Shown here: piece by piece, positions 10,681 to 53,680 of the stretch
Numbering within the stretch: position 1 is the stretch's first letter
Layout of the letters: the number at the start of each line of letters is the position of its first letter
DNA from: Spirochaetia bacterium
Lineage (GTDB): Bacteria > Spirochaetota > Spirochaetia > Sphaerochaetales > Sphaerochaetaceae
Direction of reading: 5' to 3'
NCBI GenBank assembly: GCA_009930325.1
Contig: RZYO01000005.1
Location: 1 to 58,803 of the forward strand
Length of the DNA: 58,803 nt
The notes under the pieces: model-generated
What the model was told of the DNA's origin: nothing
The model's database searches: none
Seen by the model: only the letters and a program-made list of their open reading frames with translations
Made by a program: the position numbers and the translations under genes

Positions 10681-10681
10681 A

Positions 10682-18657: not shown

Positions 18658-18884
18658 AAAAATAGTTCCTAATATATTTTGGGTTTTCACCAATATTTAA
18701 AATTCTAAATCATCATTTAATAAAAGATGATATTCTTTTCTATCTCTATTCTAAAATATTTTAATTATATTATCCATTCTTTATATTAATAATAAATGGA
18801 ATAATTTTTGAATATTTTATTTAATTATTATTAAAAAGATAAATATAGCTTATTTTTTTAAAAAAATGTTGTAAAGTAATTTTT

Positions 18885-20150: not shown

Positions 20151-21718
20151 TTAATTTTATTTAAAAATTTATATATTGAACTTAATACACCACCTGCTAT
20201 ATTCCGACCTTTGTCTGATACAGTAAGGTGGTTTGCTTCAATTCCTCTAGGATCAATATCAGCGACTTTAAATCCTTTTGAAACTATAAGATCATTAGTT
20301 AATAATCCACGAATCTTACCATCAATAGTTGCTTCAACTAATGTTTCATCAACTTTTGCAATAATATCACCTTTTTGAACAATATCACCAATTTCTTTTA
20401 AAGCAACCCATTTACCTGCAATGGGGCTATGTATTACCCTTTCTTTTCCATATCCGCCAATTATACCTGGTATTCCTGAGTTTTCAATTGCTTTACCTTC
20501 ATAAATTACGGTACCTAAGTAATGGCCTCTTTTTGTTTCTATTATACAATGACAATCTTTATTAACTTCAAATCCTGGGCCCAAAGCAATTACTAATGGA
20601 GCATCTGTAATATTAGTTCCTAAATTCTTTTTTGCTAATATTGCGTCAATTACAATTAATGGTTTAATAATTTTTATTAATGAAGCCTCTTTATCCGCCA
20701 CTATTGCAATATTACCAGATTCTAGAACTTCAAAAATATTTGTTAAATCCTCTTTATTGCATTTTATTGCAAGAGAGCCTCCGACTTCATATTGTCCATC
20801 ATACATTGCTTGAGCAAAAGAAACAGTCCTTCTAATAACAGTTGGTTGATCAGTTTCTAAAGCAATAATTTTAAATCCTAATCGATGTAATTTTAAGATA
20901 GTAGCTGTAGCTAAATCACCAGCGCCTCTGATAATAATAGGTCTATATAAATTGTTTCTTTTTATAGGATTTCTATTTTTTTCACAACTAAGTAATTCAC
21001 TTACAATACTTAAACCAACTTGATAAGGAGTTTGCCCTCCTAAATTCAATCCGATAGGGCAGTGTAATTTAAGATTTTGTTCAGCTGTAATATCTAAATT
21101 TCCAATCAGATTATACATATGGTTGTGGCTAGTCATAATACCAACATACCAAGAATCGGATTGTAAAGCTTTCTTATAATCAGATTCTTCCATAAGAGAA
21201 TGATTTAAAACTAAAATAGCACTATCAGTTGTATTAATCTCACTTAGTGTTAAACCAATATTATCACTTAAAAGTATGGAACTAGCCATAGGAAAATCAT
21301 CTTGAGAAGAATATTCTTTTCTTTTCTCAATAAGAATTATTTCAAATCCAGATTTTGATGCAATTTCAGCAACATTTTTTCCAACATGACCACCACCAAT
21401 TATTATTACTTTAGAAGAATTTTCTCCTATATCAATTGATACTTTTATAAAGTCTTTTTTTAAATCATCATCACGATAAATTTTAAATAAACCGCCTTTT
21501 TTGTCAGATAATGCTTGTTTTGCTTTTTCAATAGCTTTGAATTCTAATAAACCTCCACCAATTGTACCAAAACTATTTCCATTACTTTGTACAAGCATTC
21601 GACCACTTGTTCGTGTTACAATTCCACTATAATCACATAGAGTTACCCATGCAAATGGAATGTTTTTACTTTCAAGTTCTGAGGCGATTTTATAAGGGGA
21701 ATAATTGTTATTTTTCAT
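20147..21718 (-). CDS. XdhC-YqeB fusion, selenium-dependent molybdenum hydroxylase maturation protein
   Basis: Two modules in one protein of about 523 aa. The N-terminal 1-255 is a normally ordered XdhC: CoxI part with RTSGRMLV and GTIGGGLLEFKA, then Rossmann GGGHVGKNVAEIA and CPIGLNLGGQTPYQVGLSI. The C-terminal part (about 260-523) matches the YqeB/EF2563 family tied to selenium-dependent molybdenum hydroxylases (IIRGAGDLATATILKL, ALGPGFEVNKDCH, VIHSPIAGKW). These families are usually separate genes. No hydroxylase subunit is in the window. I chose ATG 21718; ATG 21727 is in frame. Neither has a Shine-Dalgarno, and the promoter sits so close that a leaderless mRNA is plausible. Confidence 0.88.
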   Translation of the reverse strand: MKNNNYSPYKIASELESKNIPFAWVTLCDYSGIVTRTSGRMLVQSNGNSFGTIGGGLLEFKAIEKAKQALSDKKGGLFKIYRDDDLKKDFIKVSIDIGENSSKVIIIGGGHVGKNVAEIASKSGFEIILIEKRKEYSSQDDFPMASSILLSDNIGLTLSEINTTDSAILVLNHSLMEESDYKKALQSDSWYVGIMTSHNHMYNLIGNLDITAEQNLKLHCPIGLNLGGQTPYQVGLSIVSELLSCEKNRNPIKRNNLYRPIIIRGAGDLATATILKLHRLGFKIIALETDQPTVIRRTVSFAQAMYDGQYEVGGSLAIKCNKEDLTNIFEVLESGNIAIVADKEASLIKIIKPLIVIDAILAKKNLGTNITDAPLVIALGPGFEVNKDCHCIIETKRGHYLGTVIYEGKAIENSGIPGIIGGYGKERVIHSPIAGKWVALKEIGDIVQKGDIIAKVDETLVEATIDGKIRGLLTNDLIVSKGFKVADIDPRGIEANHLTVSDKGRNIAGGVLSSIYKFLNKIN

Positions 21719-21725
21719 AAATACC

Positions 21726-21734
21726 ATTATATCA
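21726..21734 (-). promoter_or_regulatory. Extended -10 promoter abutting the XdhC-YqeB start
   Basis: On the minus strand TGATATAAT gives an extended -10 box (TG-N-TATAAT). Its last base is at 21726, so transcription would begin at about 21719, one base before ATG 21718. This fits a leaderless or nearly leaderless transcript and explains the missing ribosome site. Confidence 0.4.
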
Positions 21735-37793: not shown

Positions 37794-38819
37794 ATGGCTA
37801 ATAATGTAACTATAAAAGATATTGCTGCTCTTGCTGGAGTTAGCTATTCAACAGTTTCAAGATGTTTAAATGATAGTCCTTTAGTATCTGATAAGACAAA
37901 AAAAAAGGTAAATGAAATTGCAAAAAACCTTGATTTTGAATTTAATGCAAATGCTAGAGGTTTAATAACAAGTACTGCTAATGCTGTAGGTATTGTTTTA
38001 CCTGAAGGTTTTTCTCAAGTAAATGTTAATGCTTATCATGGATTATTATTAAATTCATTACGAAATAGCTTAGAGAAAAGAGATGTTGATTTAATTGTAA
38101 CTTATCAAACAAATCATTTTACAAATCAAAATAATATCATAAGACTTGTTAATAGGAAAAAAATTGATGGCTTGATTTTATTAATCGAAGATCCTTCGCT
38201 TGAAACTATTTCTTTCATAAAATCAAGAGACTTCCCATCAGTTTTTGTTCATTATCCACCATCAACAAAAATTAATGATTTTGATGTAATTTATACAGAT
38301 CATTTTGTTGGTGGACAAATAGTTGCAAAACATTTATTTGAAAAAGGGCATAAAGATTTTACAGTATTTAGTGTTGAAGAATATCACAAAGAATTTAAAT
38401 TAAGAGAAGAAGGCTTTTGCCAAGAAGTGTATAAACATGGAGGCACCATAAATAATTTAAAAACAAAATTAGATTATTGGAGCGCAAAAAAATGCTGTGA
38501 AGATAACATGGAATCAATAAAGAATACTTCTGCAATATTTGGCTTAAATGATTTAATTGCATTAGGTGTTATGAGAGCTTTAAAAAATGAAAATATCAAT
38601 ATCCCTTCTGATATAGCTATAGTTGGCTACGATAATAGTGAATTTAGTGAATATTCAAATCCTTCTCTTACTACAATACATCAACCCAGAGAAGAATTAG
38701 CTCTTTTTTCATTAGAAAGATTATTCTCTCAAATTAATAAAGACTCTGATAATGATAATATAAATCTTAAAAAGAAAATTAGTATACAACCAGTTCTAAT
38801 TGAACGTGATTCAACTTAA
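37794..38819 (+). CDS. LacI-family regulator of the inositol locus (inferred)
   Basis: Repressor-type regulator, 341 aa. The HTH VTIKDIAALAGVSYSTVSR (residues 5-23) is followed by the hinge NANARGLITS and a sugar-binding domain with IFGLNDLIALGVMRAL and IAIVGYDNSEFSEYSNPSLT, close to the classic LacI C-terminal signature. GAGGACTT precedes the ATG. It is the first gene before a 14-kb cyclitol operon in the same direction, and operators of the LacI type lie in front of it, of the transporter gene and of iolB. The effector is probably an inositol or an early intermediate. Confidence 0.92.
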   Translation: MANNVTIKDIAALAGVSYSTVSRCLNDSPLVSDKTKKKVNEIAKNLDFEFNANARGLITSTANAVGIVLPEGFSQVNVNAYHGLLLNSLRNSLEKRDVDLIVTYQTNHFTNQNNIIRLVNRKKIDGLILLIEDPSLETISFIKSRDFPSVFVHYPPSTKINDFDVIYTDHFVGGQIVAKHLFEKGHKDFTVFSVEEYHKEFKLREEGFCQEVYKHGGTINNLKTKLDYWSAKKCCEDNMESIKNTSAIFGLNDLIALGVMRALKNENINIPSDIAIVGYDNSEFSEYSNPSLTTIHQPREELALFSLERLFSQINKDSDNDNINLKKKISIQPVLIERDST

Positions 38820-39062: not shown

Positions 39063-40571
39063 GTGAATAATGTAGAAAACATTCTAGAACTATCTGGAAT
39101 AACTAAAATTTATCCAGGTGTTGTTGCATTAGATAATGTTAGCATGAATGTAAAAAGAGGTGAAGTTCACGGATTAATAGGTGAAAATGGTGCAGGAAAA
39201 TCAACTTTAATAAAAACTTTAGCTGGAGCCCACAAACCTAATAGTGGAGAAATTTTTTACGATAATAATACTTATGAATATTTTTTACCACATCAAGCAA
39301 TGGAATTAAAAATTGCTTGTATTTATCAAGAACTAAACCAAGTTCCTTTTATGAGTGTAATGGAAAATATTTTTTTAGGAAGAGAATTATATACTAAATC
39401 AGGTTTATTAGATTTAAAAAAGATGGAAGCTGAAACAAAAGCAGTCTTAAATGAATTTGAATTAAATATAAATCCTCATAAACAACTTGGACTTCTTGGT
39501 GTTGGTAAAAGACAAATGCTAGAAATATGTAAAGCTGCACATGCCAATTCTAAGTTACTAATTATGGATGAACCAACTGCTTCTTTAAGGGAAAAAGAAA
39601 CAAAAGAATTATTTAAAATAATTGATAAATTAAAAAAGAAAGGTGTAACAATAATTTATATTTCCCATCGATTAGAAGAAGTACAATATGCTTGTGATTC
39701 ATTAACTGTATTACGAGATGGTCAAGTTGTAGTTGATGGAGTAAGAGTAAATGAAACTTCTGTCGATGATATGGTCTCTTATATGGTTGGCCATGACATC
39801 AAACAAAAATATCCCAAAAAAGAATTTGCTATCGGAGAAAAAGTTCTTGAAGTAAAAAATCTAACATCAAAAGGCGTCTTTAATGATATTAGTTTTGATG
39901 TAAAGAAAGGGGAATTATTAGGATTTGCTGGATTAGTAGGAGCTGGTAGAACAGAACTAATGAGAGCGATTACTGGAGCAGATCCTTTTGATAGTGGTCA
40001 AATCTATATTGATGGAGAAAAAGTAACTATCAATACTCCAAAAGATTCTATTGAACATGGCATTGCTTTTTTAACAGAAGATAGAAAAGGACAAGGGTTA
40101 ATTTTACTTCAATCTGTTGAATTCAATTCAACTCTAGTATGTTTAAACAATTTTAAAAAGAAAGGTTTTTTAAATCTATCAAGTATTGCAAGTGAAACAA
40201 AAAAACTTGTTAAGGATTTACGTATTAAAGTTCCCCATATTTATACATTAACTGGTGCCTTAAGCGGAGGTAATCAACAAAAAGTTGTTTTAGCAAAATG
40301 GTTAATTACTAAAGCTAAAATATTTATTATTGATGAACCCACACGAGGAATTGATGTTGGAGCAAAAATTGAAGTTTACAATTTAATAAATCAATTACTC
40401 GATAATGGAGCTGCGGTAATAATGGTAAGTAGCGAAATGGATGAATGCATGGGAATATCAGATAGAATAATAATAATGCATGAAGGAGACAAAATGGGGG
40501 AAATATTAAGAAAAGATTTTACCCAGGAGCGAATCATGTATGCAGCATCTGGAATTAAAATAAAAAACTAA
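39063..40571 (+). CDS. Sugar ABC transporter ATP-binding protein (RbsA/MglA type)
   Basis: Cytoplasmic ATPase of a carbohydrate importer, 502 aa, with two ABC modules. Module 1: Walker A GENGAGKSTL (about 38-47), Walker B LLIMDEPTAS. Module 2 has the usual RbsA-type altered Walker A GLVGAGRTEL, an intact LSGGNQQKVVLAKWL signature and IIDEPTRGIDVG. The start is GTG at 39063 after AGGAGG. It heads the operon with a permease and a binding protein three and four genes downstream; a dehydrogenase gene is inserted between. The substrate is inferred to be an inositol from the downstream enzymes. Confidence 0.94.
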   Translation: MNNVENILELSGITKIYPGVVALDNVSMNVKRGEVHGLIGENGAGKSTLIKTLAGAHKPNSGEIFYDNNTYEYFLPHQAMELKIACIYQELNQVPFMSVMENIFLGRELYTKSGLLDLKKMEAETKAVLNEFELNINPHKQLGLLGVGKRQMLEICKAAHANSKLLIMDEPTASLREKETKELFKIIDKLKKKGVTIIYISHRLEEVQYACDSLTVLRDGQVVVDGVRVNETSVDDMVSYMVGHDIKQKYPKKEFAIGEKVLEVKNLTSKGVFNDISFDVKKGELLGFAGLVGAGRTELMRAITGADPFDSGQIYIDGEKVTINTPKDSIEHGIAFLTEDRKGQGLILLQSVEFNSTLVCLNNFKKKGFLNLSSIASETKKLVKDLRIKVPHIYTLTGALSGGNQQKVVLAKWLITKAKIFIIDEPTRGIDVGAKIEVYNLINQLLDNGAAVIMVSSEMDECMGISDRIIIMHEGDKMGEILRKDFTQERIMYAASGIKIKN

Positions 40572-40585
40572 TAGAGGGTTAATAT

Positions 40586-41584
40586 ATGAATAAAATTAAA
40601 ATTGCAGTAATAGGCCTTGGAAGATTAGGAAGTTTCCATGCAATTAATTTACAGACTAGAATTTTTAATGCTGAGTTAGTAGCAGTTTCAGAAATAAATG
40701 AAACAGCATTAGCAAATTTTACAAATAAATTTCCAGCAGTAAAAGGGTATAAAGATTATAAAGAAATGCTAAAAGATGAAAGTATTGAGGCTGTTGTTGT
40801 TGCTTCATCTACTAGCACTCATGCAACTACTGTTATTGATTGTATTAAAGCAAACAAAAAAATTTTTTGTGAAAAACCAATTGCAGTAAGTTTAGAAGAA
40901 GCAAAAGAAGTACAAAAAATTGTTGATGAAAATGATGCATATATTCAATTAGGATTTATGAGACGGTTTGATAAACCATATGTAAAAGCTAAAGCTCAAA
41001 TATTAAAAGGAGAAATGGGTAAACCTGTATCATTATTAGCAATTTCAAGAGATCCAGGCTGTCCTCCAATTGAATTTGCAAAACACAGTGGTGGTTTAGT
41101 TAACGATATGGCAATTCATGATATCGATTTATGCCGATGGTTAATGGAAAGCGAAGTTAAAGAAGTTTTTGCTCACGGTGGTGTTGTAAAATTCAAAGAA
41201 CTTGGAGAAATTGGAGATATAGATCACGTAAATATTTCAATGATTTTTGAAAATGGAAAAATGGCATTAATTGAGGCTAGTAGAAATTCTGCTTATGGCT
41301 ATGACATTAGAACTGAAGTTATTTGTGAAAATGGAGCAGTAGCAATTGGAAATATTCAAGACGAATCAACCATATATAAGATTCCAAACAAAACTTATAT
41401 CAATACAATTGGTGGTTTTCTAGAAAGATTTGAAGAAGCTTATTTTAATGAGATTAATGTTTTTGTAGAAAATATAATAAATGATATCAAACCTAGCGTA
41501 ACAGCTATTGATGGACTTAAAGCAATTCAAATTGCTGATGCAATAAATGAAAGTCTAAAAACTAATAAAATAGTAAGATTGTAG
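40586..41584 (+). CDS. Gfo/Idh/MocA-family dehydrogenase, inositol 2-dehydrogenase-like (copy 1)
   Basis: NAD(P)-dependent oxidoreductase, 332 aa. Rossmann motif GLGRLGSFHA (about 10-19), the catalytic Lys motif FCEKPIAVSL, and the second-domain triad region LVNDMAIHDIDLCRWL with Asp and His in place. These are the features of inositol or inosose dehydrogenases (IolG/IolX/IolW). It sits between the transporter ATPase and permease genes. With two more paralogues in the operon, it could act on scyllo- or another inositol isomer (inference). Confidence 0.9.
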   Translation: MNKIKIAVIGLGRLGSFHAINLQTRIFNAELVAVSEINETALANFTNKFPAVKGYKDYKEMLKDESIEAVVVASSTSTHATTVIDCIKANKKIFCEKPIAVSLEEAKEVQKIVDENDAYIQLGFMRRFDKPYVKAKAQILKGEMGKPVSLLAISRDPGCPPIEFAKHSGGLVNDMAIHDIDLCRWLMESEVKEVFAHGGVVKFKELGEIGDIDHVNISMIFENGKMALIEASRNSAYGYDIRTEVICENGAVAIGNIQDESTIYKIPNKTYINTIGGFLERFEEAYFNEINVFVENIINDIKPSVTAIDGLKAIQIADAINESLKTNKIVRL

Positions 41585-41590
41585 GAGAAA

Positions 41591-42589
41591 ATGATGAAAG
41601 AAGGTGTGTCAAATAAAAAATCGTTTGTAAATTTTATTAAAAAATTAAATCAACGTAATAGTGCAACAGGAATAATTATGAGCTTAATTGTGTTATGTAT
41701 AGTAATAACAATTTTAGCTCCAAGATTTATTACTATTGCAAACTTAAAAAACGTTTTATCTCAGGCTACAGTAAACGCAATCATAGCTATTGGAGAATTT
41801 TTAGCAATTTTAACAGCAGGTATTGATTTATCTATTGGGTCAATTTTAGCATTTTCAATAATGATGCTTGGTATTTTTGCTGTGAATTTACAATTAAACC
41901 CTATTCTTGCAATGTTATTAGCTTTAGCAGTTGGTACTTTATTTGGATTTTTTAATGGTTTCTTGTTAACAAAATTTAAACTACCTCATCCATTCATTTC
42001 TACTATTGGTACAAAAATGATAGGTGCTGGATTAGCTTTAGCAGTAACAAATGCAATGCCTATTTCAGGATTTGCTCCTTCAATTCAATTTATTGGAAGT
42101 AAAAGTTTTGGGATACTACCAGTTAGTGTATTACTTGTTGTAATAGTCTATACATGTATGTATTTCTTTATGAATAGAACAGCTACTGGACGCTACATAT
42201 ATGCTGTTGGAGGTAATAAAGAAGCAACAAGATTAAGTGGTATTAATGTAAATAAAGTATTATTGATTGTATATTCATTAAGTGGTTTCTTCGCTGCTTT
42301 AGCAGGTATTGTTTTAGTAGGTAGAGTAAATGCTGCTTATCCTTTAGCAGGAAAAGACTATGAAACAGATGCTATCGCTTCAGTAATTATTGGTGGTGCT
42401 AGTTTTGCTGGTGGTGTAGGTCAAATTCAAAACACTATCATCGGTGTATTAATTATAGCTGTATTAAGAAACGGATTAAACTTATTAAATGTTGATTCAG
42501 CCTACCAAACAGTAGCAATTGGAGTTGTTATTATTTTAGCTGTATATCTCGATGTTCTTAGAAATCAATCTTCAAAGATTAAAAAATAA
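41591..42589 (+). CDS. Sugar ABC transporter permease (RbsC type)
   Basis: Inner-membrane permease of the ribose/galactose/inositol class, 332 aa with about 8-10 hydrophobic helices. Family hallmarks: an N-terminal segment ending ITIANLKNVLSQ, EFLAILTAGIDLSIGSI, TGRYIYAVGGNKEATRLSGI and GGASFAGGVG. AGGAG precedes ATG 41591 (a second ATG follows at once). It works with the ATPase at 39063 and the binding protein at 42624. Confidence 0.94.
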   Translation: MMKEGVSNKKSFVNFIKKLNQRNSATGIIMSLIVLCIVITILAPRFITIANLKNVLSQATVNAIIAIGEFLAILTAGIDLSIGSILAFSIMMLGIFAVNLQLNPILAMLLALAVGTLFGFFNGFLLTKFKLPHPFISTIGTKMIGAGLALAVTNAMPISGFAPSIQFIGSKSFGILPVSVLLVVIVYTCMYFFMNRTATGRYIYAVGGNKEATRLSGINVNKVLLIVYSLSGFFAALAGIVLVGRVNAAYPLAGKDYETDAIASVIIGGASFAGGVGQIQNTIIGVLIIAVLRNGLNLLNVDSAYQTVAIGVVIILAVYLDVLRNQSSKIKK

Positions 42590-42623
42590 AAAATTTTACA
42601 TTTCGAACAATAAGGAGGAAGAA

Positions 42624-43589
42624 ATGAAAAAGTTAAGTAGAGTTTTATTAGTAATGGTTTTAGCATTAATGCTTGTTCCAACACAAGTTTTTGCTAATGG
42701 TTCAAGTGAAAAAGCAGCTGATAATGGCAAACCAACAGTTGCAGTTGTATTAAAGACATTAAGTAGTGAATATTGGAAGAGAGTAGAAACAGGTTGTGAT
42801 CAAGCTGCTGCCGAATTAGGTATTAATTTAATTAAATTAGGCCCTCCAACAGAAGATGCTGTAGAACAACAAATTAACATGGTAGAAGATGCACTAACAC
42901 AAAATCCTGTAGCTTTAGTATTTTCTCCATCTCAACCATCAACTGCTGTTAATGTAGTTAATAAAGCAAAAGATATGAAAATCCCAGTTATATTAGTTGA
43001 TACTCCAATGCCTGATGGTTTTACAAATTATGATTCATATGTTGGAACAGAAAACTTCCAAGCTGGTGTTAAAGGTGCTGAAAGTTTAATCGCATCAATG
43101 AATGGTCAAAAAAATGTTAATGTAGTATTAATTGAAGGTGCTCCTGGTAATCCATCATGTACAACTAGAACTGATGGTGCAGAACAAGCATTTAGAGCAG
43201 CTGGTTATAATATCTTATCAAGACAACCTGGTTATAGCGATAGAGAAAAAGCTTATAATGTAATGCAAAATGTATTACAAACAAGTAGTGATATTGATAT
43301 CGTATTCTGTGCTAATGATGAAATGGCTTTAGGTGATGTAAGAGCTTCTCTACAAGCTGGAGTAAAAGCAAAGATTATGGGTGTTGATGGAAACAAATCT
43401 GCATTAGAATCAATCCTAGCAGGTGAATTATATTCAACAATTGCTCAAAGACCTGAAGGCATGGGATATTTATCTGTACAATATGCAATGAAAGTTGTAA
43501 ATGGCGAAAAGATTGAAAAATATGTTGACGCTGGTGTAGATATTTATACAAAAGAAAATGCTCAAAAAGCTTTAGATGCTTTAAACTAA
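42624..43589 (+). CDS. Sugar ABC transporter substrate-binding protein (RbsB type)
   Basis: Periplasmic-binding-protein type 1 domain, 321 aa. The signal peptide (MKKLSRVLLVMVLALMLVP to a likely cleavage after FA) gives a mature end NGSSEKA, a form common in spirochaete binding proteins. The body contains VAVVLKTLSSEYWKRVETG, IPVILVDTPMP, GVKGAESLIA and CANDEMALGDV. ATG at 42624 is set by AAGGAGG; 24 in-frame codons upstream overlap the permease gene and lack a signal sequence. A perfect hairpin follows the stop codon. Confidence 0.93.
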   Translation: MKKLSRVLLVMVLALMLVPTQVFANGSSEKAADNGKPTVAVVLKTLSSEYWKRVETGCDQAAAELGINLIKLGPPTEDAVEQQINMVEDALTQNPVALVFSPSQPSTAVNVVNKAKDMKIPVILVDTPMPDGFTNYDSYVGTENFQAGVKGAESLIASMNGQKNVNVVLIEGAPGNPSCTTRTDGAEQAFRAAGYNILSRQPGYSDREKAYNVMQNVLQTSSDIDIVFCANDEMALGDVRASLQAGVKAKIMGVDGNKSALESILAGELYSTIAQRPEGMGYLSVQYAMKVVNGEKIEKYVDAGVDIYTKENAQKALDALN

Positions 43590-43647: not shown

Positions 43648-44655
43648 ATGGCAAATATTGGAATTATTGGACTAGGTTCAATGGGATTATATCATTGTGA
43701 TAATATTTTAAAATGTGATAATAGTAATATAGTTGCTGTATCTGATATTAATAGAAATGGATATGAAACACTTATCAATAAGGGTATTCATGATTTAAAC
43801 TACTATGAAGATCCAATAAAATTAATTAATGATCATAATGTTGATGCAGTACTAATTGCTTCTCCAGATTCAACTCACTTTGATTTATTAAAAAATTGTA
43901 TAATATCAAAGAAAAAAGTATTTTGTGAAAAACCGATTTCTTTAAATAGTAAACAAGCTTTAGAAATTATCAATATGGAAGTTCAATTAAACACACAATA
44001 TGTTGCTTTAGGATTTAACAGAAGATTTGACAATAATTTTCTCAATATGAAAAAAATTGCAGATCAATTAGTAATTGGTGAAAGCCTATTATATAAAGGG
44101 GTTCATAGAAATGAGAAAGCTTTCTATGAAGCAAATTCAGCATTTATTTTAAATAATACCTCAGGTCATGATGTCGATATATCTTCATTTCTACTAAATT
44201 CAAGACCAATGGAAATAAGTGTTGTTGGATTAAAAAGTAACCCATTATTAAATGATGATTGTGCTGATTTATTAATTCTAAATATTTTAATGGAAAATAA
44301 TAAAATGGCAAGTATAGAAATATTTGTAAATGCTCGATACGGATATGAAGTAATGGCTCAACTTGTTTGTAACAAAGGCGCAGTTGAATACTCAAATAAT
44401 AAAAATATTACTATCAAATCAGATAATAAATATTATAGTAAGATTACTAGTGATTATAGAAAATATTTCGAACAATCATATTTAGATGAAATGATAAATT
44501 GGACTTCATTTTTGAATGGAAAACAAAAACTAAAAATGGCAACAGCTTTTGATGGTTATATTGCATTAAAAACTACAGAAACTGCTGCAAAGGCTTTATA
44601 TAGCCACACCTTTGAAAAAGTAAATCTCATTAATACTCCAAGTATATATTTGTAG
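43648..44655 (+). CDS. Gfo/Idh/MocA-family dehydrogenase (copy 2, altered catalytic Asp)
   Basis: Oxidoreductase of 335 aa with Rossmann motif GLGSMGLYH and the FCEKPISL lysine motif. In the second domain the usual D-x3-H-D segment of inositol dehydrogenases reads NTSGHD: the Asp four residues before the His is Asn, and the Gly-Gly before it is missing. The substrate or activity may therefore differ from the other two copies. An ABC binding-protein gene precedes it; a promoter and operator follow before iolB, so it ends the first transcription segment. Confidence 0.85.
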   Translation: MANIGIIGLGSMGLYHCDNILKCDNSNIVAVSDINRNGYETLINKGIHDLNYYEDPIKLINDHNVDAVLIASPDSTHFDLLKNCIISKKKVFCEKPISLNSKQALEIINMEVQLNTQYVALGFNRRFDNNFLNMKKIADQLVIGESLLYKGVHRNEKAFYEANSAFILNNTSGHDVDISSFLLNSRPMEISVVGLKSNPLLNDDCADLLILNILMENNKMASIEIFVNARYGYEVMAQLVCNKGAVEYSNNKNITIKSDNKYYSKITSDYRKYFEQSYLDEMINWTSFLNGKQKLKMATAFDGYIALKTTETAAKALYSHTFEKVNLINTPSIYL

Positions 44656-44760: not shown

Positions 44761-45567
44761 ATGATCGTAAAAAATGATGGAAAATTTAATATTGGATATA
44801 CTCCAATCACAGAAATTAATGGAAAAAATAGTGATATGTTGTTGGATTTTGGAATCCTTAAATTATCAAAAGGAGAAAGTTATAAATCTGAACTTAATCT
44901 AGAGAGAGCATATTTATTAATTAATGGAAATATTGAATTTACCTACGAAAACAAGAGTGTGCAAGCTGCAAGATTTTCTTGTTTCGATGAAGAACCAATT
45001 ACCCTTCATGTTTGTAAAAATGTTAAAGTTCAAATCACGGCTTTAGACGATAGTGAAATTTGTGTTGAAAGATGTATTAATGATAAATTATTTGATACAA
45101 AACTATATACAAAAGACGATGTAAGAACTGATATTTTTGGAAAAGATGTATTAAACAATACCTCAATAAGAAGTGTTAGAACAGTATTTGATGGTGAAAT
45201 TGCGCCATATTCTAATATGGTAATTGGTGAAGTAATTAATCATCCTGGTAAATTTTCAAGTTATCCACCTCATGATCATCCACAACCTGAAATCTATCAC
45301 TATAGATTTTTCCCTAAACAAGGCTTTGGGGTATCAATGTTAGACGATGATGCATTTATAGTAAAAGATGGTGATTCTTCATTAATTCATCCTAATACTA
45401 CTCATTCCCAAGTTGCAGCTCCTGGATATGCTATGTACTACATATGGATGATTCCTCATTTACAAGATGATAGGTGGCTTCCAACTACTAGATATTATAG
45501 AGAAGAACACAAGTGGCTATTAGATAAAGATGTAGAAATTTGGCCACAAAAAAAGTTTGAAAAATAG
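44761..45567 (+). CDS. iolB: 5-deoxy-glucuronate isomerase
   Basis: Converts 5-deoxy-glucuronate to 2-deoxy-5-keto-gluconate in inositol breakdown. The 268-aa bicupin has the family core GEVINHPGKFSSYPPHDHPQ, which includes the metal-binding His residues, followed by EIYHYRFFPKQGFG and HPNTTHSQVAAPGYAMYYIW. AGGAAG precedes the ATG. It is the first gene after the internal promoter and is followed 11 bases later by iolD, whose product supplies its substrate. Confidence 0.93.
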   Translation: MIVKNDGKFNIGYTPITEINGKNSDMLLDFGILKLSKGESYKSELNLERAYLLINGNIEFTYENKSVQAARFSCFDEEPITLHVCKNVKVQITALDDSEICVERCINDKLFDTKLYTKDDVRTDIFGKDVLNNTSIRSVRTVFDGEIAPYSNMVIGEVINHPGKFSSYPPHDHPQPEIYHYRFFPKQGFGVSMLDDDAFIVKDGDSSLIHPNTTHSQVAAPGYAMYYIWMIPHLQDDRWLPTTRYYREEHKWLLDKDVEIWPQKKFEK

Positions 45568-45578
45568 GAGTAATTAAT

Positions 45579-47459
45579 ATGTCAAACACAATAAAATTAA
45601 CTGTTGGACAAGCAATAGTCAAATTTCTTGATAATCAATTTGTTAACTTTGATAACAGAGAAGAAAAATTCATTAATGGTGTCTTTGGTATTTTTGGTCA
45701 TGGTTGTGTCGTTGGTTTAGGGGAAGCTTTAGAACAAAATAATCATAGTCTAAAATTTTATAAAGGATGTAATGAACAAGGAATGGCACATAGTGCTATA
45801 GCATATGCTAAACAAAATAATAGAAAAAAAATCATGGCTGTTACAACTTCAATCGGCCCTGGAGCTATGAATTTAGTAACAGCTGCAGCCTTAGCTACAA
45901 CAAATAGAATACCTGTTTTATTACTTCCAGGTGATACTTTTGCTTGCAGACAACCTGATCCTGTACTACAACAATTAGAACAATTCCACGATTTTGGAAT
46001 TACATCTAATGATGCATTTAAACCTGTTTGTAGATATTTTGATAGAGTAAGTAGGCCTGAGCAGTTAATGACTGCTTTGCTAAATGCAATGAGAGTTTTA
46101 ACTTCTCCTGTTAATACTGGTGCAGTTTGTGTTGCTCTTCCTCAAGACGTTCAAGCAGAAGCATATGATTATCCAGTTGAATTTTTTGAAAAGAGAATTC
46201 ATTACATTGATAGAATTGAACCTAATGTAAAAGTTGTTGATGAAGCAATTAAAATCTTTAAAAACAGTAAAAAACCTATAATAATTTGTGGTGGTGGTGT
46301 TAGATTCAGTGAATGTGGTGAAGAATTAGCTCAATTTGCTTCAAAATATAATATTCCATTTGGAGAAACTCAAGCAGGTAAAAGTGCTATTGAATTTTCA
46401 CATCCATATAACTTAGGTGGTATTGGAGTAACTGGAGGGTTAGCCGCAAACGAAATTGCATCAAACGCTGATTTAATTATTGCAGTTGGAACACGTTTAT
46501 CTGATTTTACGACCTCAAGTAAATGGTTATTTGCAAAAGACAATGTCAAAATAATATCTATTAATGTTAATGATTTTGATGCAATAAAAATGAATTCATT
46601 ACCATTAGTATGTGATGCAAAAAAAGGTTTAATTGCTTTAGACAATCAACTTGAAGAAATAAATTATAAAGCTTCATATACCAATGAAATTATTGAAATT
46701 AAGAATGAATGGGATAAAGAAGTTGATAGACTTTATACAACTGAGTTAGGACCAAATAACAGATATTCTCAACTCAGAGCTCTTGGAATCATGAATGAAG
46801 AACAGTTTGCAAAAAATAGTATAGTAGTTGGAGCTTCTGGCTCTCTTCCTGGTGATATGCAAAGAGTTTGGAGAGCATATGAAAGAGAAACTTATCATAT
46901 GGAATATGGCTATTCATGCATGGGATATGAAGTAAGTGGTGCATTAGGTGTAAAACTTGCAAATGAAGAAGTCGAAGTATATTCCATGGTTGGTGATGCT
47001 AGTTTTGTAATGTTACATTCAGAATTACTAACAGCTCTAGAAAATAACATAAAAATAAATATTATGTTATTCGATAATAATGGTTTTGGTTGTATTGATA
47101 ATCTTCAAAGATCACAAGGTATTCCAAAATTTGGTTGTGAACTAGTTTATAGAGGAAAAGACTCTAATCGTATTGATTCAACTGGTGAAAAATTACAAGT
47201 ATCATATGCAATGATTGCAAAAGGATATGGATGTGATGTTTGGACTGTTCATAACAGCGAAGAATTAAAAAAAGCACTTGAAGAATCTAAAAAAAGTACT
47301 AAATCAACATTAATAGATATAAAAGTAGATGAAGATTCTATGAGTGGCTCTTATAAAAGTTGGTGGAGAGTTGGGACTCCTGAAGTTTCACAAAAACAAA
47401 GTGTCATTGATGCTTATAAAAAACTGCAAGAAGAAATTAAAAAAACTAAAAAGTTTTAA
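45579..47459 (+). CDS. iolD: 3D-(3,5/4)-trihydroxycyclohexane-1,2-dione hydrolase
   Basis: Thiamine-diphosphate enzyme that opens the inositol-derived ring to 5-deoxy-glucuronate, 626 aa. The N-terminal domain has the conserved Glu in [11 protein letters not shown] and [15 protein letters not shown]. The C-terminal cofactor motif is MVGDASFVM...[14 protein letters not shown] follows AGGAG. The presence of IolB before it and IolE after it fixes the pathway. This ring-opening step is specific to inositol catabolism, which is the main evidence for the operon's substrate. Confidence 0.95.
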
Positions 47460-47472: not shown

Positions 47473-48363
47473 ATGGATACAAAGAAGGTCAAACTAGCAA
47501 TAGCACCTATTGCTTGGACAAATGATGATTTACCTGATTTAGGAAAAGAAAATACATTCGAGCAATGTGTTAGTGAAATGGCTTTAGCTGGGTTTACTGG
47601 AAGCGAAGTTGGTAATAAATACCCAAAAGATCCAAAGGTTTTAAAACCAATGTTAGACTTGAGAGGAATAAGTATTTGTAATCAATGGTTTAGTAGCTTT
47701 TTAACTACCCAAGATTTAGAAACAGTAATAAAAGATTTTAATTTACAATTAGATTTTTTAGAAGCTATGGGAGCATCTGTTATTGGACCTGCAGAACAAG
47801 GAAATAGCATACAAGGAACAACTTTAAGTGTTTTTGATGAAAAGCCTACTTTTAATGATGAACAATGGGAAAAAGTTGCAACTGGACTAAACACTTTAGG
47901 GAAAATAGCTAGAGATAGAGGTTTTAAACTATCCTACCATCATCATATGGGCACGGGATGTCAAACAATTGAAGAAACAAAAAAACTCATGGATTTAACA
48001 GATAAAAGATATGTATTTTTAACTTTTGACTCAGGTCACTTTGCGTTTTCTGGTGAAGATCCTGTTGAAGCTTTAAATCTATTTATTGATAGAGTGGCTC
48101 ACGTACATCTAAAAGACATTAGAAAAGATGTAGTAGAACAAGTTAAAAAAGATAAATTAAGTTTCTTAGAAGCAGTAAGAGCAGGAGCTTTTACGATTCC
48201 AGGTGATGGGTGTATTGATTTTCCTTCAATTTTCAAAATATTAGAAGAACATAATTATGAAGGCTGGATGGTTGTTGAAGCAGAACAAGACCCAGCAAAA
48301 GCAAATCCATTAGAATATGCGATTAGAGCAAGAAAATATATAAGAGAAAACACTGGTTTATAG
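47473..48363 (+). CDS. iolE: myo-Inosose-2 dehydratase
   Basis: TIM-barrel metalloenzyme removing water from 2-keto-myo-inositol, 296 aa. It starts with the family's [15 protein letters not shown]. Metal-site segments follow: [27 protein letters not shown] and the late Glu in [10 protein letters not shown] chose ATG at 47473, which follows GAGG and gives the correct N-terminus; 43 in-frame codons upstream overlap iolD. Its product is the substrate of IolD. Confidence 0.94.
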
Positions 48364-48372: not shown

Positions 48373-49398
48373 ATGAATAAGTTAAGAGTTGGAATTATAG
48401 GTGGAGGCAGAATTGGTAAAGTTCATGCACAAAGTATTACTAATTTAGTTCCTAATGCAACAATTGTTGCAATTGCAGATCCTTTTATGAATGAAAATTT
48501 AGAAAAATGGGCAAAAGATAAAGGAATTAATGAAACATATAAGGATCCTTATGATATAATAAACCATAAGGATATTGATGCTGTACTTATTTGTTCTCCT
48601 ACCGATACTCATACTCAATTAATTCAAGCAGCAGCTAAGGCTAAAAAACATATTTTTTGTGAAAAACCTGTAGATACTGACTTAAAAAGAATTGATGAGA
48701 CAATGAAAGTTGTTAGAGAAAATAATGTACTTTTCCAAATTGGATTTAATAGACGCTTTGATCATAACCATAGTGCTGTTAGAGATGCGGTTTTGGAAAA
48801 TAAAGTTGGAGATGTCCACGTAATTAAGGTAACTTCAAGAGACCCTGAACCACCAAGTCCTGAATATGTTAAGGTTTCTGGAGGGATTTTCTTAGATATG
48901 ATGATTCATGATTTTGATATGGTCAGATATTTAAGTAATAGTGAAGTAAAAGAAGTATATGCTACAGGTGCTGTATTAATTGATCCAGAAATTGGAAAAG
49001 CAGGAGATGTTGATACTGCCATGGTAATGCTTACGATGGAAAATGGAGCTCTAGCTATTATTGATAATTCAAGACAAGCTGTTTACGGTTACGATCAAAG
49101 AACAGAAGTTTTTGGCTCAAAAGGTTGTGCAAAAGTTGAAAATGATAGAAAGAGTTTAATCGAGGTTAGTACAAAAGATAGTGTAGAATCACAAAAACCT
49201 CTTTATTTTTTCTTAGACAGGTACATTGATTCTTATGCTAATGAAATTATTGATTTTATCAATTCAGTTCAAAATGGTGCTGAAATAAAATGTGGAATTG
49301 AAGATGCTATAAGACCTGTAGAAATAGCTTTAGCTGCATCTAAATCCCTAAAAGAACACCGTCCTGTATTGATAAGTGAAGTAGCACTCTCTAAGTAA
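48373..49398 (+). CDS. iolG: Inositol 2-dehydrogenase (Gfo/Idh copy 3)
   Basis: Oxidises myo-inositol to 2-keto-myo-inositol, 341 aa. Rossmann motif GGGRIGKVHA, catalytic Lys motif FCEKPVDTDL, the RRFDHNH segment and GGIFLDMMIHDFDMVRYL with the Asp and His of the catalytic triad all match IolG. Of the three paralogues here it has the most typical IolG sequence and lies directly behind iolE. AGGAG precedes the ATG. Confidence 0.93.
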   Translation: MNKLRVGIIGGGRIGKVHAQSITNLVPNATIVAIADPFMNENLEKWAKDKGINETYKDPYDIINHKDIDAVLICSPTDTHTQLIQAAAKAKKHIFCEKPVDTDLKRIDETMKVVRENNVLFQIGFNRRFDHNHSAVRDAVLENKVGDVHVIKVTSRDPEPPSPEYVKVSGGIFLDMMIHDFDMVRYLSNSEVKEVYATGAVLIDPEIGKAGDVDTAMVMLTMENGALAIIDNSRQAVYGYDQRTEVFGSKGCAKVENDRKSLIEVSTKDSVESQKPLYFFLDRYIDSYANEIIDFINSVQNGAEIKCGIEDAIRPVEIALAASKSLKEHRPVLISEVALSK

Positions 49399-49408: not shown

Positions 49409-50059
49409 ATGGGCGTAATCACAATTTCAAGAAAAATGGGTAGTGAAGGAACTTATATCGGTAGAAAAGTAGCACAAAGATTAAACATGGCTTATGCAGA
49501 TAAAGCTTTTATTTCGAGAATTATGCGAGAGTATGGATTTAGTGAATTTAAAGAAGTTTATGATGAAGCTCCTGCTTTTTGGGATAGATTTCGAACATTT
49601 AGAGAACAAACAATTGATTTTTTAGCAAAAACTGAACAAGCAATTGGTAAAGCAGACAATGTAGTAATCGTTGGTCGAGGTGGTTTTGGTATTTTTGAAA
49701 ATTACAACGATGTTTTAAACGTTAGAACTAAAGCTCCAATGGAAATTCGAGTAAAAAGACAAATGGCAGAACATGGCATGAGCTATGAAGAAGCCTTAAA
49801 ACACGTAGAAGAAAATGACAAAATAAGAAAATCTTTTGTTGAATCTGATTTTAGATTTGATTATCAAAATACTAATAATTTTGACATGATTATTAATACT
49901 GGAATTATTGAACCTGATAAAGCTGTAGATTATATATGTGAGGTATATCAATCCTTAATAAAAAACGGCAGAAGTAGTACCTCAAAAAATTTAAGTGATC
50001 TAGAAGTAGATCCAATATTATTAAAATTTGTAAAAGAAGAATTAGATAAAATTCGTTAA
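49409..50059 (+). CDS. Cytidylate-kinase-like P-loop protein
   Basis: 216 aa of the Cytidylate_kin2-type family, whose members are mostly uncharacterised. The N-terminus reads ITISRKMGSEGTYIGRKVA, a P-loop variant (residues 5-22) with Arg-Lys where many P-loops have Lys-Ser/Thr. VVIVGRGGFGIF follows at about 86-96, a lid-like RQMAEHGMSYEEAL at about 117-130, and the FDMIINTG motif near 158. AAGGAGG precedes the ATG. It lies 10 bases after iolG and 12 bases before the GAPDH-like gene, so it belongs to the operon. It could supply the missing sugar-acid kinase step or have a regulatory role; neither is shown. Confidence 0.82.
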   Translation: MGVITISRKMGSEGTYIGRKVAQRLNMAYADKAFISRIMREYGFSEFKEVYDEAPAFWDRFRTFREQTIDFLAKTEQAIGKADNVVIVGRGGFGIFENYNDVLNVRTKAPMEIRVKRQMAEHGMSYEEALKHVEENDKIRKSFVESDFRFDYQNTNNFDMIINTGIIEPDKAVDYICEVYQSLIKNGRSSTSKNLSDLEVDPILLKFVKEELDKIR

Positions 50060-50071: not shown

Positions 50072-51091
50072 ATGAAGAAAGTAAAAGTAGGCGTTGCCGG
50101 CTATGGAACAATAGGACAAAGATTAGCTGATGGAGTGGCATTACAAGAAGATATGGAATTAGTAGGAGTAGCAGATGTTGCTCCAACATTACCAATACAA
50201 GCTTTGTATGAAAAAGGAATGCCATACAAATTATTTACAGCTGCTCCTGATAAAATAAATTTATTAACTGACAAAAATATTCCAGTTAGTGGAACTTTTG
50301 AAGAATTAGTTAGCGAAGTTGACATTATGTTAGATGCAACAAATGCTGGAATTGGAGCAATTAATAAAAAGTTATATGAAAAATATAATACTAAAGCTAT
50401 ATTCCAAGGCGGAGAAAAAAATGATGTAGCTGATATTTTCTTCCATGGATATGCAAATTATGAAAAAGGATTAGGAGCTAATTACTTAAAATTAACAAGT
50501 TGTAATACAACTGGATTAATTAGAGCAGTTGATGCAATTGATAGACAAGTTGGTGTTTCTAAAACAGCAATAACAATTATAAGAAGAGTAGCAGATCCTG
50601 GTGATTATCATAGAGGATTAACTAATGCTTTAGAAGTAGCACCAGCTCCTAACCATCAAGCGTTGGATTTAATGACAATAATGCCACATATTGATGCTAC
50701 AGGTATTTTAGTTCACACTCCTGTAACTCATGGTCATATTATCACATCAGTATTAACTCCAAAAAACAAAATAAGTAAAGATGAATTATTAGAAATTTTC
50801 AATGCTCATCCTAGAATTAGGGTAGTTAGCTTAGAAGATGGCTTTAAAGGAAATGCTTCATTGTTTAAATATGCAAGAGATCTTGGCAACCCAAGAGGGG
50901 ACATGTATGAAATTGCAGTGTTTAAAGAATCTATTGTAAATAGTGGTGATGATATAATGTTTGCAATTAATATTCCTCAAGAAGCTGTAGTAATTCCTGA
51001 AAATATTGATGGTATAAGAGCAGCATTAAGAATGCAAGAAACAAGAGAAGAAGCAACAAGTGCAACTAATAAATATTTAGGTATGAAATAA
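50072..51091 (+). CDS. Archaeal-type (class II) glyceraldehyde-3-phosphate dehydrogenase homologue
   Basis: 339 aa, aligning by eye over its whole length with archaeal GAPDH and not with the bacterial GapA family. Seen: Rossmann AGYGTIGQR, an acidic D35 after beta-2 (GVADVAP) where archaeal forms often have Lys-Thr, suggesting NAD over NADP; IFQGGEK; the catalytic Cys144 in SCNTTGL; RRVADP (171-176); and the THGH histidines (220-222). Near the phosphate pocket the archaeal KGPINA and SHHGPD read RGLTNA and NHQALD, so the substrate may differ. It overlaps the PGK-like gene by one base (TAATG). AAGGAG precedes the ATG. Confidence 0.85.
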   Translation: MKKVKVGVAGYGTIGQRLADGVALQEDMELVGVADVAPTLPIQALYEKGMPYKLFTAAPDKINLLTDKNIPVSGTFEELVSEVDIMLDATNAGIGAINKKLYEKYNTKAIFQGGEKNDVADIFFHGYANYEKGLGANYLKLTSCNTTGLIRAVDAIDRQVGVSKTAITIIRRVADPGDYHRGLTNALEVAPAPNHQALDLMTIMPHIDATGILVHTPVTHGHIITSVLTPKNKISKDELLEIFNAHPRIRVVSLEDGFKGNASLFKYARDLGNPRGDMYEIAVFKESIVNSGDDIMFAINIPQEAVVIPENIDGIRAALRMQETREEATSATNKYLGMK

Positions 51092-52338
51092 TGAGTAAAA
51101 AATTAGGCTTTAAATCCATAGAAGAAAGGGATGTAAATAATAAAAAAGTATTGTTAAGATTAGATATAAATTCACCAATTGATGTTAATACAAAAAAAAT
51201 TGTTAACACTAATAGAATAGATAAATCTTTAAAAACTTTAAATTATTTAAAAAATCATGGAGCAAAAGTCGCAATTATTGCTCATCAAGGCGATACCTTA
51301 GATTATCAAAATTTAATTTCACTTGAAGAACATGCTAAAATTTTAGCTTCAAAATTAAATACTAAAGTTGAATACATTGATGATGTTTGTGGACCTGCTG
51401 CAATAGAGAAAGTTGAAAAATTGAAAAGTGGTGAATTTATAATCTTAGGTAATTTACGTTATCTAGGTGAAGAATTATCAACATTTGAGAATAGTGTAAA
51501 ATTAAGTGACGAGCAAATGTTAAATACTTATTTAGTGAGATCTCTTGCTCCTCATTTCGATTTATATGTAAATGATGCTTTTTCAGCTGCTCATAGAAGA
51601 GCACCAAGTATGGTAGCTTTTCAGTTAATATTACCAAGTGCAGCAGGATTCTTATTCTTTGATGAAGTATCAACTTTGTCAAAAGTAATGAATAATCCAA
51701 AATCACCTTGTGTATTTGTATTAGGTGGAGCAAAAATTTCTGATGCTTTTTCTATGATGGAAGAAGTATTAAAGAAAAATATTGCAGATAAGATATTAAC
51801 TTGTGGAGTAACAGGCGAAGTCTTTTTAATAGCTAATGGAATAGATTTGGGTTCTGAAGTTTATTCATTTTTAAGTGATAGAGGTTTGTTGGATTTCATT
51901 AATCAAGCAAAAGACTTACTTAAAACTTATAAAGATAGAATCTTAATGCCAATAGACTTAGCTTATCAAGAAGGAAATAGTAGAATTAATAAATTAGTAG
52001 AAAATAAAATGGACGATTTCTTATACGCAGATATTGGAGATACTACAATAGATTATTATTCTACCTTAATTGATAGTGCAAATACTATATTTGTTAATGG
52101 ACCTGCAGGAATGTATGAAAATCCAGTTTTAGAAAATGGAACAAAAAAACTACTAATAGCAATTTCCGAATCTAAGGGATTTAGTGTTGTTGGTGGTGGA
52201 GATAGTGTAACTGCAACAATGAAATTTACAGATTATACAAAAATGAACTACATTTGTACTGCAGGGGGGGCGATGGTTAGATACTTATCTGGTAAGAAAC
52301 TCCCCTTAATAACTGCAATGGAGCACTCTAAACAATAA
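51091..52338 (+). CDS. Archaeal-type phosphoglycerate kinase homologue
   Basis: Acyl-phosphate kinase fold, 415 aa, closest by eye to archaeal PGK (LLRLDINSPIDVNT, YVNDAFSAAHRRAPS, LPSAAG, NGPAGMYENP, LSGKKLPLITAME). Kept: R23, D25, N27, R42, H65, R123, H168-R169, the catalytic K215 in LGGAKISD and the TAGGA loop. Changed: the HQ(S/G)RPG segment of PGKs reads HQGDTLD, with D68 in place of one of the Arg residues that hold the 3-phosphate of 3-phosphoglycerate. With the coupled GAPDH-like enzyme it may form or use a different acyl phosphate. It is the last gene before a terminator. Confidence 0.85.
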   Translation: MSKKLGFKSIEERDVNNKKVLLRLDINSPIDVNTKKIVNTNRIDKSLKTLNYLKNHGAKVAIIAHQGDTLDYQNLISLEEHAKILASKLNTKVEYIDDVCGPAAIEKVEKLKSGEFIILGNLRYLGEELSTFENSVKLSDEQMLNTYLVRSLAPHFDLYVNDAFSAAHRRAPSMVAFQLILPSAAGFLFFDEVSTLSKVMNNPKSPCVFVLGGAKISDAFSMMEEVLKKNIADKILTCGVTGEVFLIANGIDLGSEVYSFLSDRGLLDFINQAKDLLKTYKDRILMPIDLAYQEGNSRINKLVENKMDDFLYADIGDTTIDYYSTLIDSANTIFVNGPAGMYENPVLENGTKKLLIAISESKGFSVVGGGDSVTATMKFTDYTKMNYICTAGGAMVRYLSGKKLPLITAMEHSKQ

Positions 52339-52441: not shown

Positions 52442-53680
52442 ATGAATTATATAATTGAATATAATAAAAATAAATTAAATATAGAAATACCAGATGATTC
52501 AACAATTATTACTCCAAAAAATGTAATAACAAAAGATCAAATTAATATTATTAATGAAGGATTAAATAGACTCTATAATAGTGAATCAATTAATGACTTT
52601 GTTAAAAACAAAAATAAAATATTAATAATTGTAAATGATGGAACAAGACCAACTCCAACATCAAAAATATTAGAAGTAATATATCCTTTAATAGAAAAAA
52701 AAGAAGTTACTATAATTGTAGCAACAGGAGTCCATAGAATTGCAAATGATAATGAAATAAAAAAAATATTAGGCAATACCTATAATAATTTAAAAGACTA
52801 TGTAGTATCTCATGAGGCAAAGAAACAAGAAGATTTGATTTTCTTAGGCAATAGCAGAGCAAATACCCCATTAGAAATAAATAAAAGAGTTATGGAAAAT
52901 GATGCATTAATAATTATAGGAAGCGTAGAACCACATTATTTTGCAGGATACACTGGTGGAAGGAAAGCTATAATGCCTGGAGTAGCTTCTTATAGATCAA
53001 TTGAAGCTAATCACAAAAGGGCATTGGATCCAAGAGCAAAAGCATTAAATTTAGTTGATAATCCTGTTCATCTAGATATGGTAGATGTATTAAACTTACT
53101 TAATAATAAACCTATCTTTTCAATTATGAGTGTAATGGATAGGAATCATCAAATATATGAAATCACAAGTGGTGATATAAATAAAAGTTTTGATGAGGCA
53201 ATTGAAAAAGCAAATGAAGTATTTACGTGTGAAATAAATAAAAAGTGTGATATTGTTATTTCAGTTGCAACATCTCCTATGGATATAAACCTATATCAAT
53301 CACAAAAAGCACTTGATAATGGTAAACTAGCACTCAAAGAAAATGGAATATTAATTTTAGTTTCTGCATGTAGAGAAGGTGTAGGAGAAGAAGCATTTTA
53401 TGATTTATTGAGTTGTAGTAATTCCCCAAAAGAAGTTTTAAAAACAATAGAAAAGAATTATAAATTAGGATATCACAAAGCTGCAAAAATGGCAGAGATA
53501 ATGACTTGGGCTCAAATATGGGTAATAAGTGAATTAGAAGACCAATTATGGGATAACATATTTATTAAACAATTTAAGAGTGTTCAAGAAGCTATAGATA
53601 AAGCACTTAGCATAAAAGGTGAAAAAGCAACCTTAAGTTTATTAACAGATGGTTGTATTACTGTTCCTTTAATTAAATAA
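52442..53680 (+). CDS. LarA-family nickel-dependent 2-hydroxyacid racemase/epimerase
   Basis: 412 aa of the LarA family, which uses the nickel-pincer nucleotide. All known cofactor and substrate positions are visible: R69 in DGTRPTP, H98 in ATGVHR, H165 in EPHYFAGYTGG, the cofactor-linked K175 in GGRKAIMPG and H191 in ANHKR. Family members racemise lactate or malate or epimerise sugar acids such as gluconate. larB, larC and larE for cofactor synthesis are not in the window. AAGAGG precedes the ATG. The position just behind the inositol operon suggests a polyhydroxy-acid substrate, but a terminator lies between. It abuts the convergent TSUP gene. Confidence 0.9.
   Translation: MNYIIEYNKNKLNIEIPDDSTIITPKNVITKDQINIINEGLNRLYNSESINDFVKNKNKILIIVNDGTRPTPTSKILEVIYPLIEKKEVTIIVATGVHRIANDNEIKKILGNTYNNLKDYVVSHEAKKQEDLIFLGNSRANTPLEINKRVMENDALIIIGSVEPHYFAGYTGGRKAIMPGVASYRSIEANHKRALDPRAKALNLVDNPVHLDMVDVLNLLNNKPIFSIMSVMDRNHQIYEITSGDINKSFDEAIEKANEVFTCEINKKCDIVISVATSPMDINLYQSQKALDNGKLALKENGILILVSACREGVGEEAFYDLLSCSNSPKEVLKTIEKNYKLGYHKAAKMAEIMTWAQIWVISELEDQLWDNIFIKQFKSVQEAIDKALSIKGEKATLSLLTDGCITVPLIK

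Follow-up and report, generated by a model that had tools for sequence, protein, structure and literature searches.

In pig phosphoglycerate kinase (PGK) the 3-phosphate of the substrate is held by Arg65, Arg122 and Arg170, and in the human enzyme Arg65 and Arg170 form salt bridges to Asp218 upon closure (PMC7729029). Among bacteria that use inositol, a survey counted eight of 15 without IolJ and without the DUF2090 aldolase domain (PMC9007349). Moreover, in carnitine degradation by Acinetobacter baumannii malic semialdehyde is converted to D-malate and further to pyruvate by a malic semialdehyde dehydrogenase (MSA-DH) and a decarboxylating D-malate dehydrogenase (PMC11353897). Here we analyse a stretch of 58,803 nucleotides (the window; contig RZYO01000005.1, GenBank assembly GCA_009930325.1) from the 3.5 Mb draft genome of a Spirochaetia bacterium of the family Sphaerochaetaceae, in which a gene for a PGK homologue (positions 51091-52338) is clustered with genes for inositol degradation (iol genes), for a type II glyceraldehyde-3-phosphate dehydrogenase (GAPDH-II, gene GAPDH2) homologue and for a LarA-family racemase homologue, all on the + strand. 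We propose, with a probability of roughly 0.75, that this PGK paralogue has been retuned from 1,3-bisphosphoglycerate (1,3-BPG) to (R)-malyl-1-phosphate and that, together with the GAPDH-II homologue, it would serve an inositol route that bypasses IolC, IolJ and IolA.

The open frame at 51091-52338 (415 amino acids; proposed malyl-phosphate kinase) matched the Pfam PGK model PF00162 over its full length with 353.5 bits (cut-off 27), and its AlphaFold2 model (mean pLDDT 92.2) has the Pyrococcus PGK 2CUN as best match in the Protein Data Bank (PDB), with a TM score of 0.85. The original prediction, which was based on the letters of the window, had aligned the PGK segment AHQSRPG by eye with AHQGDTLD and equated human Arg65 with Asp68 (codon at 51292-51294, + strand). 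This alignment was borne out, since D68 falls in the Arg65 column both in the HMMER alignments (2CUN and 1VPE) and in a MAFFT alignment with 11 ordinary PGKs (nine from spirochaetes, including that of the own genome, plus 2CUN and 1VPE); the column has R in ten of these, the own genome's PGK included, and K in 2CUN. Across 113 homologues position 68 is occupied by D (103), S (nine) or G (one), and by a basic residue in none. The members with S or G form a single early-branching clade in the tree and still adjoin iol or transketolase genes; because this clade shares the gene context, the family is constant in lacking the basic residue and not in having the Asp. Conservation of the Asp among homologues, put forward at the outset as a check, thus holds for the loss of the basic residue (113/113) and fails for the Asp itself (103/113). 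In the tree the PGK-like family is split from ordinary PGK by one branch with a support of 100/98.

The other substrate and catalytic residues that had been listed as retained, i.e. R23, D25, N27, R42, H65, R123, R169 and K215, are indeed all present; the first seven are invariant in an alignment of 86 homologues, of which 81 have K and five have R at position 215. The equivalent of Asp218 is invariant as well, and among the three arginines that bind the 3-phosphate only the Arg65 position is altered. Only two basic residues are newly fixed in the family: R150, where ordinary PGK has K, and R397, where it has E or S. No conserved Arg or Lys that could compensate near position 68 was found in the homologue alignment, R397 being a candidate only, without covariation with D68. 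The PGK homologue is very probably not a 3-phosphoglycerate (3PG) enzyme, and its natural substrate probably lacks a distal phosphate while the acyl-phosphate chemistry is retained. In this the direction of the original prediction is supported; its argument from the negative charge at position 68 needs correction, because Ser or Gly is found in one clade with this gene context and because R123 and R169 are kept in every homologue, so that a distal anion is still to be expected, for which a carboxylate is a better fit than an uncharged group. A single residue does not settle specificity, and it is the conserved operon that suggests which substrate is likely. An ordinary GAPDH and an ordinary PGK gene lie side by side on another contig of the same genome (G000:C247), which makes the window copy a dedicated paralogue.

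Within the PGK-like family we also note a gamma-/alphaproteobacterial branch (L089, L096, L099, L101, L129 and L139; loci and genomes carry our own numbers), some members of which are adjoined by DUF6152 or amidohydrolase genes. The substitutions K215R and R397Q, each present in six sequences when counted family-wide, apparently belong to this branch.

The start codon of the PGK-like gene overlaps the stop codon of the gene before it by one base (TAATG). This preceding gene (50072-51091, + strand) encodes the type II (archaeal-type) GAPDH homologue, proposed here to be a phosphorylating (R)-malate-semialdehyde dehydrogenase, and its product scored 405 bits with the type II GAPDH profile NF003251 (cut-off 185). 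Among well-covered loci outside the window's family, i.e. those with 5 kb on both sides (n = 51; 28 with iol genes and 23 without), GAPDH2 is on the same strand as the PGK-like gene in all 51 and no more than 200 bases away in 50. The catalytic C144 is kept in the window and in 108 of 109 members altogether. Near the substrate site, motifs of archaeal GAPDH are altered in nearly all members (PSHHGPD to PxHQAxD, VPTTLMH to VHTPVTH and GPINAI to GLTNAL); that these motifs bind phosphate is our assumption. Since the GAPDH homologues share these changes in motifs that archaeal GAPDHs conserve, the two partners appear to have been altered together. One locus (L033) has two GAPDH2 copies (4166-5194 and 10420-11448) that are identical at 1024 of 1029 bases, one before LarA and the other before the PGK-like gene, as expected from a recent duplication or gene conversion.

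The window cluster, as identified by sequence, combines these two homologues and LarA with IolG, IolE and IolD above their curated cut-offs and with an IolB-type isomerase. Specifically, the genes (all + strand) are an IolB/KduI-family isomerase, proposed to convert 5-deoxyglucuronate to 2-deoxy-5-keto-gluconate (44761-45567; PF04962, 165.5 bits, below the TIGR04378 cut-off), IolD, trihydroxycyclohexane-1,2-dione hydrolase (45579-47459; TIGR04377, 916.8 bits, cut-off 715), IolE, inosose dehydratase (47473-48363, with an internal ATG taken as start; TIGR04379, 419.2 bits, cut-off 290) and IolG, inositol 2-dehydrogenase (48373-49398; TIGR04380, 469.7 bits, cut-off 355). In the window's family the paralogue is present in 22 genomes, nearly all of which have GAPDH2-PGK-LarA together with iol genes; IolD above cut-off was found in 19 of 22 tested family genomes with the PGK-like gene and in none of eight without it. 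Outside the family 80 loci were fetched, many of them from metagenome bins with provisional record names, and by these names they belong to Bacillota/Clostridia, Spirochaetota, Chloroflexi, Synergistaceae, Fusobacteria, Latescibacterota and Proteobacteria.

Among the well-covered loci a split transketolase (TktN and TktC) is part of the cluster in 25 of the 28 with iol genes vs three of the 23 others (p = 3e-8, uncorrected for relatedness). A full operon typical of these loci is that of Carboxydocella (L091), with genes for a transporter, GAPDH2, the PGK-like protein, TktN, TktC, IolB, IolD, IolE, IolG, LarA, a phosphofructokinase-family protein and malic enzyme. The idea of a transketolase was prompted in part by one locus (L044), and its wide linkage in other phyla, as well as the D-malate dehydrogenase alternative given below, was found later. 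In some Sphaerochaeta-type genomes a second split transketolase and an FGGY-type kinase (identified by eye) are inserted between the iol genes and GAPDH2-PGK-LarA (L041, L042, L043, L164 and L165). The motif NGGTHM of the module's transketolase C-chain (GEDGxSH in Carboxydothermus 6YAJ) was considered as a mark of changed specificity and was dropped, because both split transketolases encoded elsewhere in the own genome have NGGTHM.

Downstream of the PGK-like gene, 52442-53680 (+ strand) encodes a homologue of the LarA-family nickel-pincer racemases, for which we propose malate racemase activity (D- to L-malate). Its nearest solved relative is the malate racemase Mar2 (6D6Z), in which K351 of the GHK motif probably binds the second carboxylate of malate (PMC7583248). 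The corresponding lysine (K346 in the window) and all catalytic residues are kept in 74 of 74 neighbouring LarA proteins, the window's included, and the LarA of the Carboxydocella operon (601 bits) passes the LarAH6 malate racemase cut-off of 500. Malic enzyme is present in 28 loci, 27 of which have LarA. Six loci instead have a decarboxylating dehydrogenase of the TTC family (tartrate/D-malate type; closest PDB entry 3FLK), and in all six both LarA and malic enzyme are lacking. That two unrelated solutions for handling D-malate occupy the same slot is the strongest argument for D-malate as the predicted product.

The classical IolC (alone or fused to DUF2090) and IolA steps, which this route would replace, were not found in the window's family. 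IolC above cut-off was present in none of 15 tested genomes and the IolC-fused aldolase domain DUF2090 in none of 30, the positive controls being matched in both searches; IolA above cut-off was present in none of 15, with five of 14 controls above it. These searches covered IolC, IolC-DUF2090 and IolA; for stand-alone IolJ no dedicated model was run. Among ten carriers outside the family one has IolC.

The product of IolB is 2-deoxy-5-keto-D-gluconate (DKG), which when drawn as a ketose has the D-threo arrangement at C3 and C4 that is common to transketolase donors. DKG (HOCH2-CO-CHOH-CHOH-CH2-COO-) is an isostere of xylulose-5-phosphate with CH2-COO- in place of CH2-OPO3, and (R)-malate semialdehyde is the carboxylate analogue of D-glyceraldehyde-3-phosphate (G3P). 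In the proposed route inositol would be converted to DKG (step 1), and transketolase would shift C5-C6 of DKG to an aldose phosphate, leaving OHC-CHOH-CH2-COO-, i.e. (R)-malate semialdehyde (step 2). With NAD(P)+ and inorganic phosphate the GAPDH homologue would form (R)-malyl-1-phosphate, the analogue of 1,3-BPG (step 3), and the PGK homologue would move its phosphate to ADP, yielding D-malate and ATP (step 4); in the pocket R123 and R169 would suffice for the shorter distal carboxylate, with no further need of Arg65. LarA would then racemise D- to L-malate for conversion to pyruvate by malic enzyme, while in other genomes the D-malate-type dehydrogenase would give pyruvate directly (step 5). 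The folds are known, and the chemistry would be that of glycolysis copied onto a new substrate. No description of an inositol route with transketolase, malate racemase, malyl phosphate or malate semialdehyde was found in the open-licence literature searched, and our data point to an undescribed route of inositol degradation across several groups of mostly anaerobic bacteria.

Several points weigh against this route. Beyond the gene identities we infer all of its steps, and the enzyme activities are predicted ones. No transketolase gene adjoins the PGK-like gene in the window; split-transketolase homologues with 64% and 56% identity to TktN of a spirochaete locus (L072) are encoded elsewhere in the own genome. 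The window LarA reaches 382.4 bits with LarAH6, its best NCBIfam match, and stays below the cut-off of 500 for malate racemases. Neither in the own draft (G000; 92% complete) nor in several complete relatives did we find LarC and LarE, which are needed for the nickel-pincer (NPN) cofactor; one genome of the same genus (G079) has both, and LarE is present in the tested genomes of Carboxydocella and Clostridium (G496 and G498). About half of the loci with the PGK-like gene have no iol genes nearby, and inositol can therefore not be the sole source of the substrate. The loci that we compared share phylogenetic history and are not independent, and the gammaproteobacterial branch with K215R and R397Q may have another role. 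Finally, tartrate is accepted by TTC-family enzymes and by malate racemases, i.e. Mar-type LarA, as well as malate.

As to the cofactor, LarA with all catalytic residues was found together with neither LarC nor LarE in five whole genomes (G000, G093, G113, G115 and G090), and in such genomes NPN comes either from elsewhere or from another biosynthetic pathway.

The breadth of the LarA and TTC substrates leads to the first of three rival explanations, i.e. that the pair acts on the aldehyde of a longer or more oxidised hydroxy acid, such as 5-deoxyglucuronate (to 2-deoxyglucarate) or tartrate semialdehyde, with a tartrate-like product passed to LarA or the TTC enzyme. It gains from the fact that 5-deoxyglucuronate is an aldehyde of the same pathway, but it does not account for the malic enzyme adjacent in 28 loci or for the linkage of transketolase to iol genes, and a six-carbon substrate is hard to fit into a PGK pocket that has kept its distal arginines; we consider it improbable. 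A somewhat poorer candidate is an ordinary second glycolytic pair that acts on G3P and 3PG and is regulated together with inositol use, Asp68 being tolerated drift. The retained PGK fold and catalytic residues agree with this, as does the score of the partner above the NCBIfam cut-off for type II GAPDH. Yeast PGK mutants at R65 are reportedly still active, and a structure of the R65Q enzyme has been solved (1QPG). However, the basic residue is gone from all 113 members across many phyla, hence not by drift, the same genome already has an ordinary gap-pgk pair, and this reading would explain neither the parallel changes in GAPDH nor why the pair is linked to genes for malate racemase, malic enzyme or D-malate-type dehydrogenase. 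We reject as highly improbable that malonate semialdehyde from the IolC-IolJ route is turned into malonyl phosphate by the GAPDH homologue and into malonate and ATP by the PGK homologue in place of IolA, for although malonate semialdehyde is the usual product of inositol and IolA was not found, IolC and the IolC-DUF2090 aldolase were not found either, so that malonate semialdehyde would not form, malonate offers LarA no chiral 2-hydroxyl, D25 and N27, which in PGK bind the 2-oxygen of the substrate (PMC7729029), are invariant, and the transketolase, malic enzyme and D-malate-type dehydrogenase genes would be left unexplained.

More widely, the pair may belong to a general malate-semialdehyde module, in which GAPDH-II and PGK paralogues, followed by malate racemase and malic enzyme or by D-malate dehydrogenase, would conserve energy as malyl phosphate in many phyla and would be fed by several upstream pathways; for this wider proposal we see even odds. 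Its inputs would be inositol via transketolase and possibly 4-amino-3-hydroxybutyrate or carnitine-type compounds via a GABA-transaminase-like enzyme, among others. Such a module would be a naturally recurring way to form ATP through malyl phosphate.

Genes for a class III aminotransferase (GABA-transaminase-like) adjoin the GAPDH2 and PGK-like genes in L105, L131, L143, L110 and L163. The aminotransferase of L105 exceeds the GABA-transaminase cut-off of TIGR00700, and those of L131, L143 and L110 are accompanied by malic enzyme and LarA; such loci possibly serve the degradation of 4-amino-3-hydroxybutyrate, which would also yield malate semialdehyde. In five other loci (L073, L077, L078, L079 and L145) the PGK-like module is found with a GarL-type HpcH/HpaI aldolase and an Asp/Glu-racemase-family protein, and L077 and L079 have an aldehyde ferredoxin oxidoreductase as well, suggestive of another upstream pathway for the module.

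The remaining genes of the window cluster are also on the + strand. At its head is a LacI-type regulator (37794-38819; open frame identified by eye), followed by a sugar ABC transporter (39063-43589) made up of an ATPase (39063-40571), a permease (41591-42589) and a binding protein (approximately 42624-43589). A second IolG-type inositol 2-dehydrogenase is encoded within the transporter region (40586-41584; TIGR04380, 370.6 bits, cut-off 355), and a Gfo/Idh-family, IolG-like dehydrogenase (43648-44655) scored below the equivalog cut-offs. Between IolG and GAPDH2, inside the iol operon, lies a gene for a cytidylate-kinase-like protein (49409-50059; PF13189, 124.4 bits), which is also present in the related loci L033 and L072. 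Away from the cluster, at 15463-21727, we noted by eye two neighbouring MinD-type ATPases with ferredoxin domains and then, on the opposite strand, two XdhC-like proteins (338 and 526 amino acids) flanking an L-serine-dehydratase-like gene.

If our proposal is right, GAPDH/PGK would have a widespread paralogous pair that acts on another substrate and is at present annotated as glycolytic in databases. Inositol breakdown would have a third ending beside IolC-IolJ and the IolC-DUF2090 fusion, by which inositol users without IolJ and DUF2090 could be accounted for. Moreover, the ATP used by IolC would be spared and one ATP gained by substrate-level phosphorylation, which is of relevance to fermenters.

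Compared with the archaeal-type PGK of Pyrococcus horikoshii (2CUN), the window protein shares the whole fold, the catalytic lysine, D25, N27, R42, H65, R123 and R169, and in both a lysine is lacking at position 219. The window family differs in having Asp, Ser or Gly for Arg65/Lys, a conserved insertion with F132 and E133 and the gained R397, and it comes without exception with a modified GAPDH-II and frequently with genes for malate handling. With respect to PGK in general, D23, N25, R38 and K215, which serve catalysis and bind the 2-hydroxyl and carboxylate, correspond to D25, N27, R42 and K215 of the window protein, whereas of the three 3-phosphate positions (Arg65, Arg122 and Arg170) the first is not basic but has D68. 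Classical inositol catabolism (IolG-E-D-B-C-J-A) has IolG, IolE, IolD and an IolB-type isomerase in common with the cluster; in the proposed route transketolase, GAPDH-II, the PGK-like protein and LarA replace IolC, IolC-DUF2090 and IolA, and the product would be malate and not dihydroxyacetone phosphate (DHAP) and malonate semialdehyde. The synthetic malyl-phosphate pathway to 2,4-dihydroxybutyrate reportedly activates the other carboxyl group, using aspartokinase-type enzymes. It shares malyl phosphate and malate semialdehyde as intermediates with our proposal, but it is engineered and runs in the opposite direction, from malate to the semialdehyde (PMC12104201). With the nickel-dependent malate racemase LarAH6/Mar2 (PMC7583248) the window LarA shares the residues for catalysis and for NPN binding as well as the lysine that binds malate; it differs in being divergent and below the family cut-off, in a draft where the NPN synthesis genes were not found. 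Finally, the carnitine degradation described above (PMC11353897) passes through the same intermediates as those proposed here, and six of our loci use a related decarboxylating dehydrogenase; there a simple aldehyde dehydrogenase carries out the oxidation and neither an acyl phosphate nor ATP is formed, whereas here the GAPDH/PGK pair would conserve the energy.

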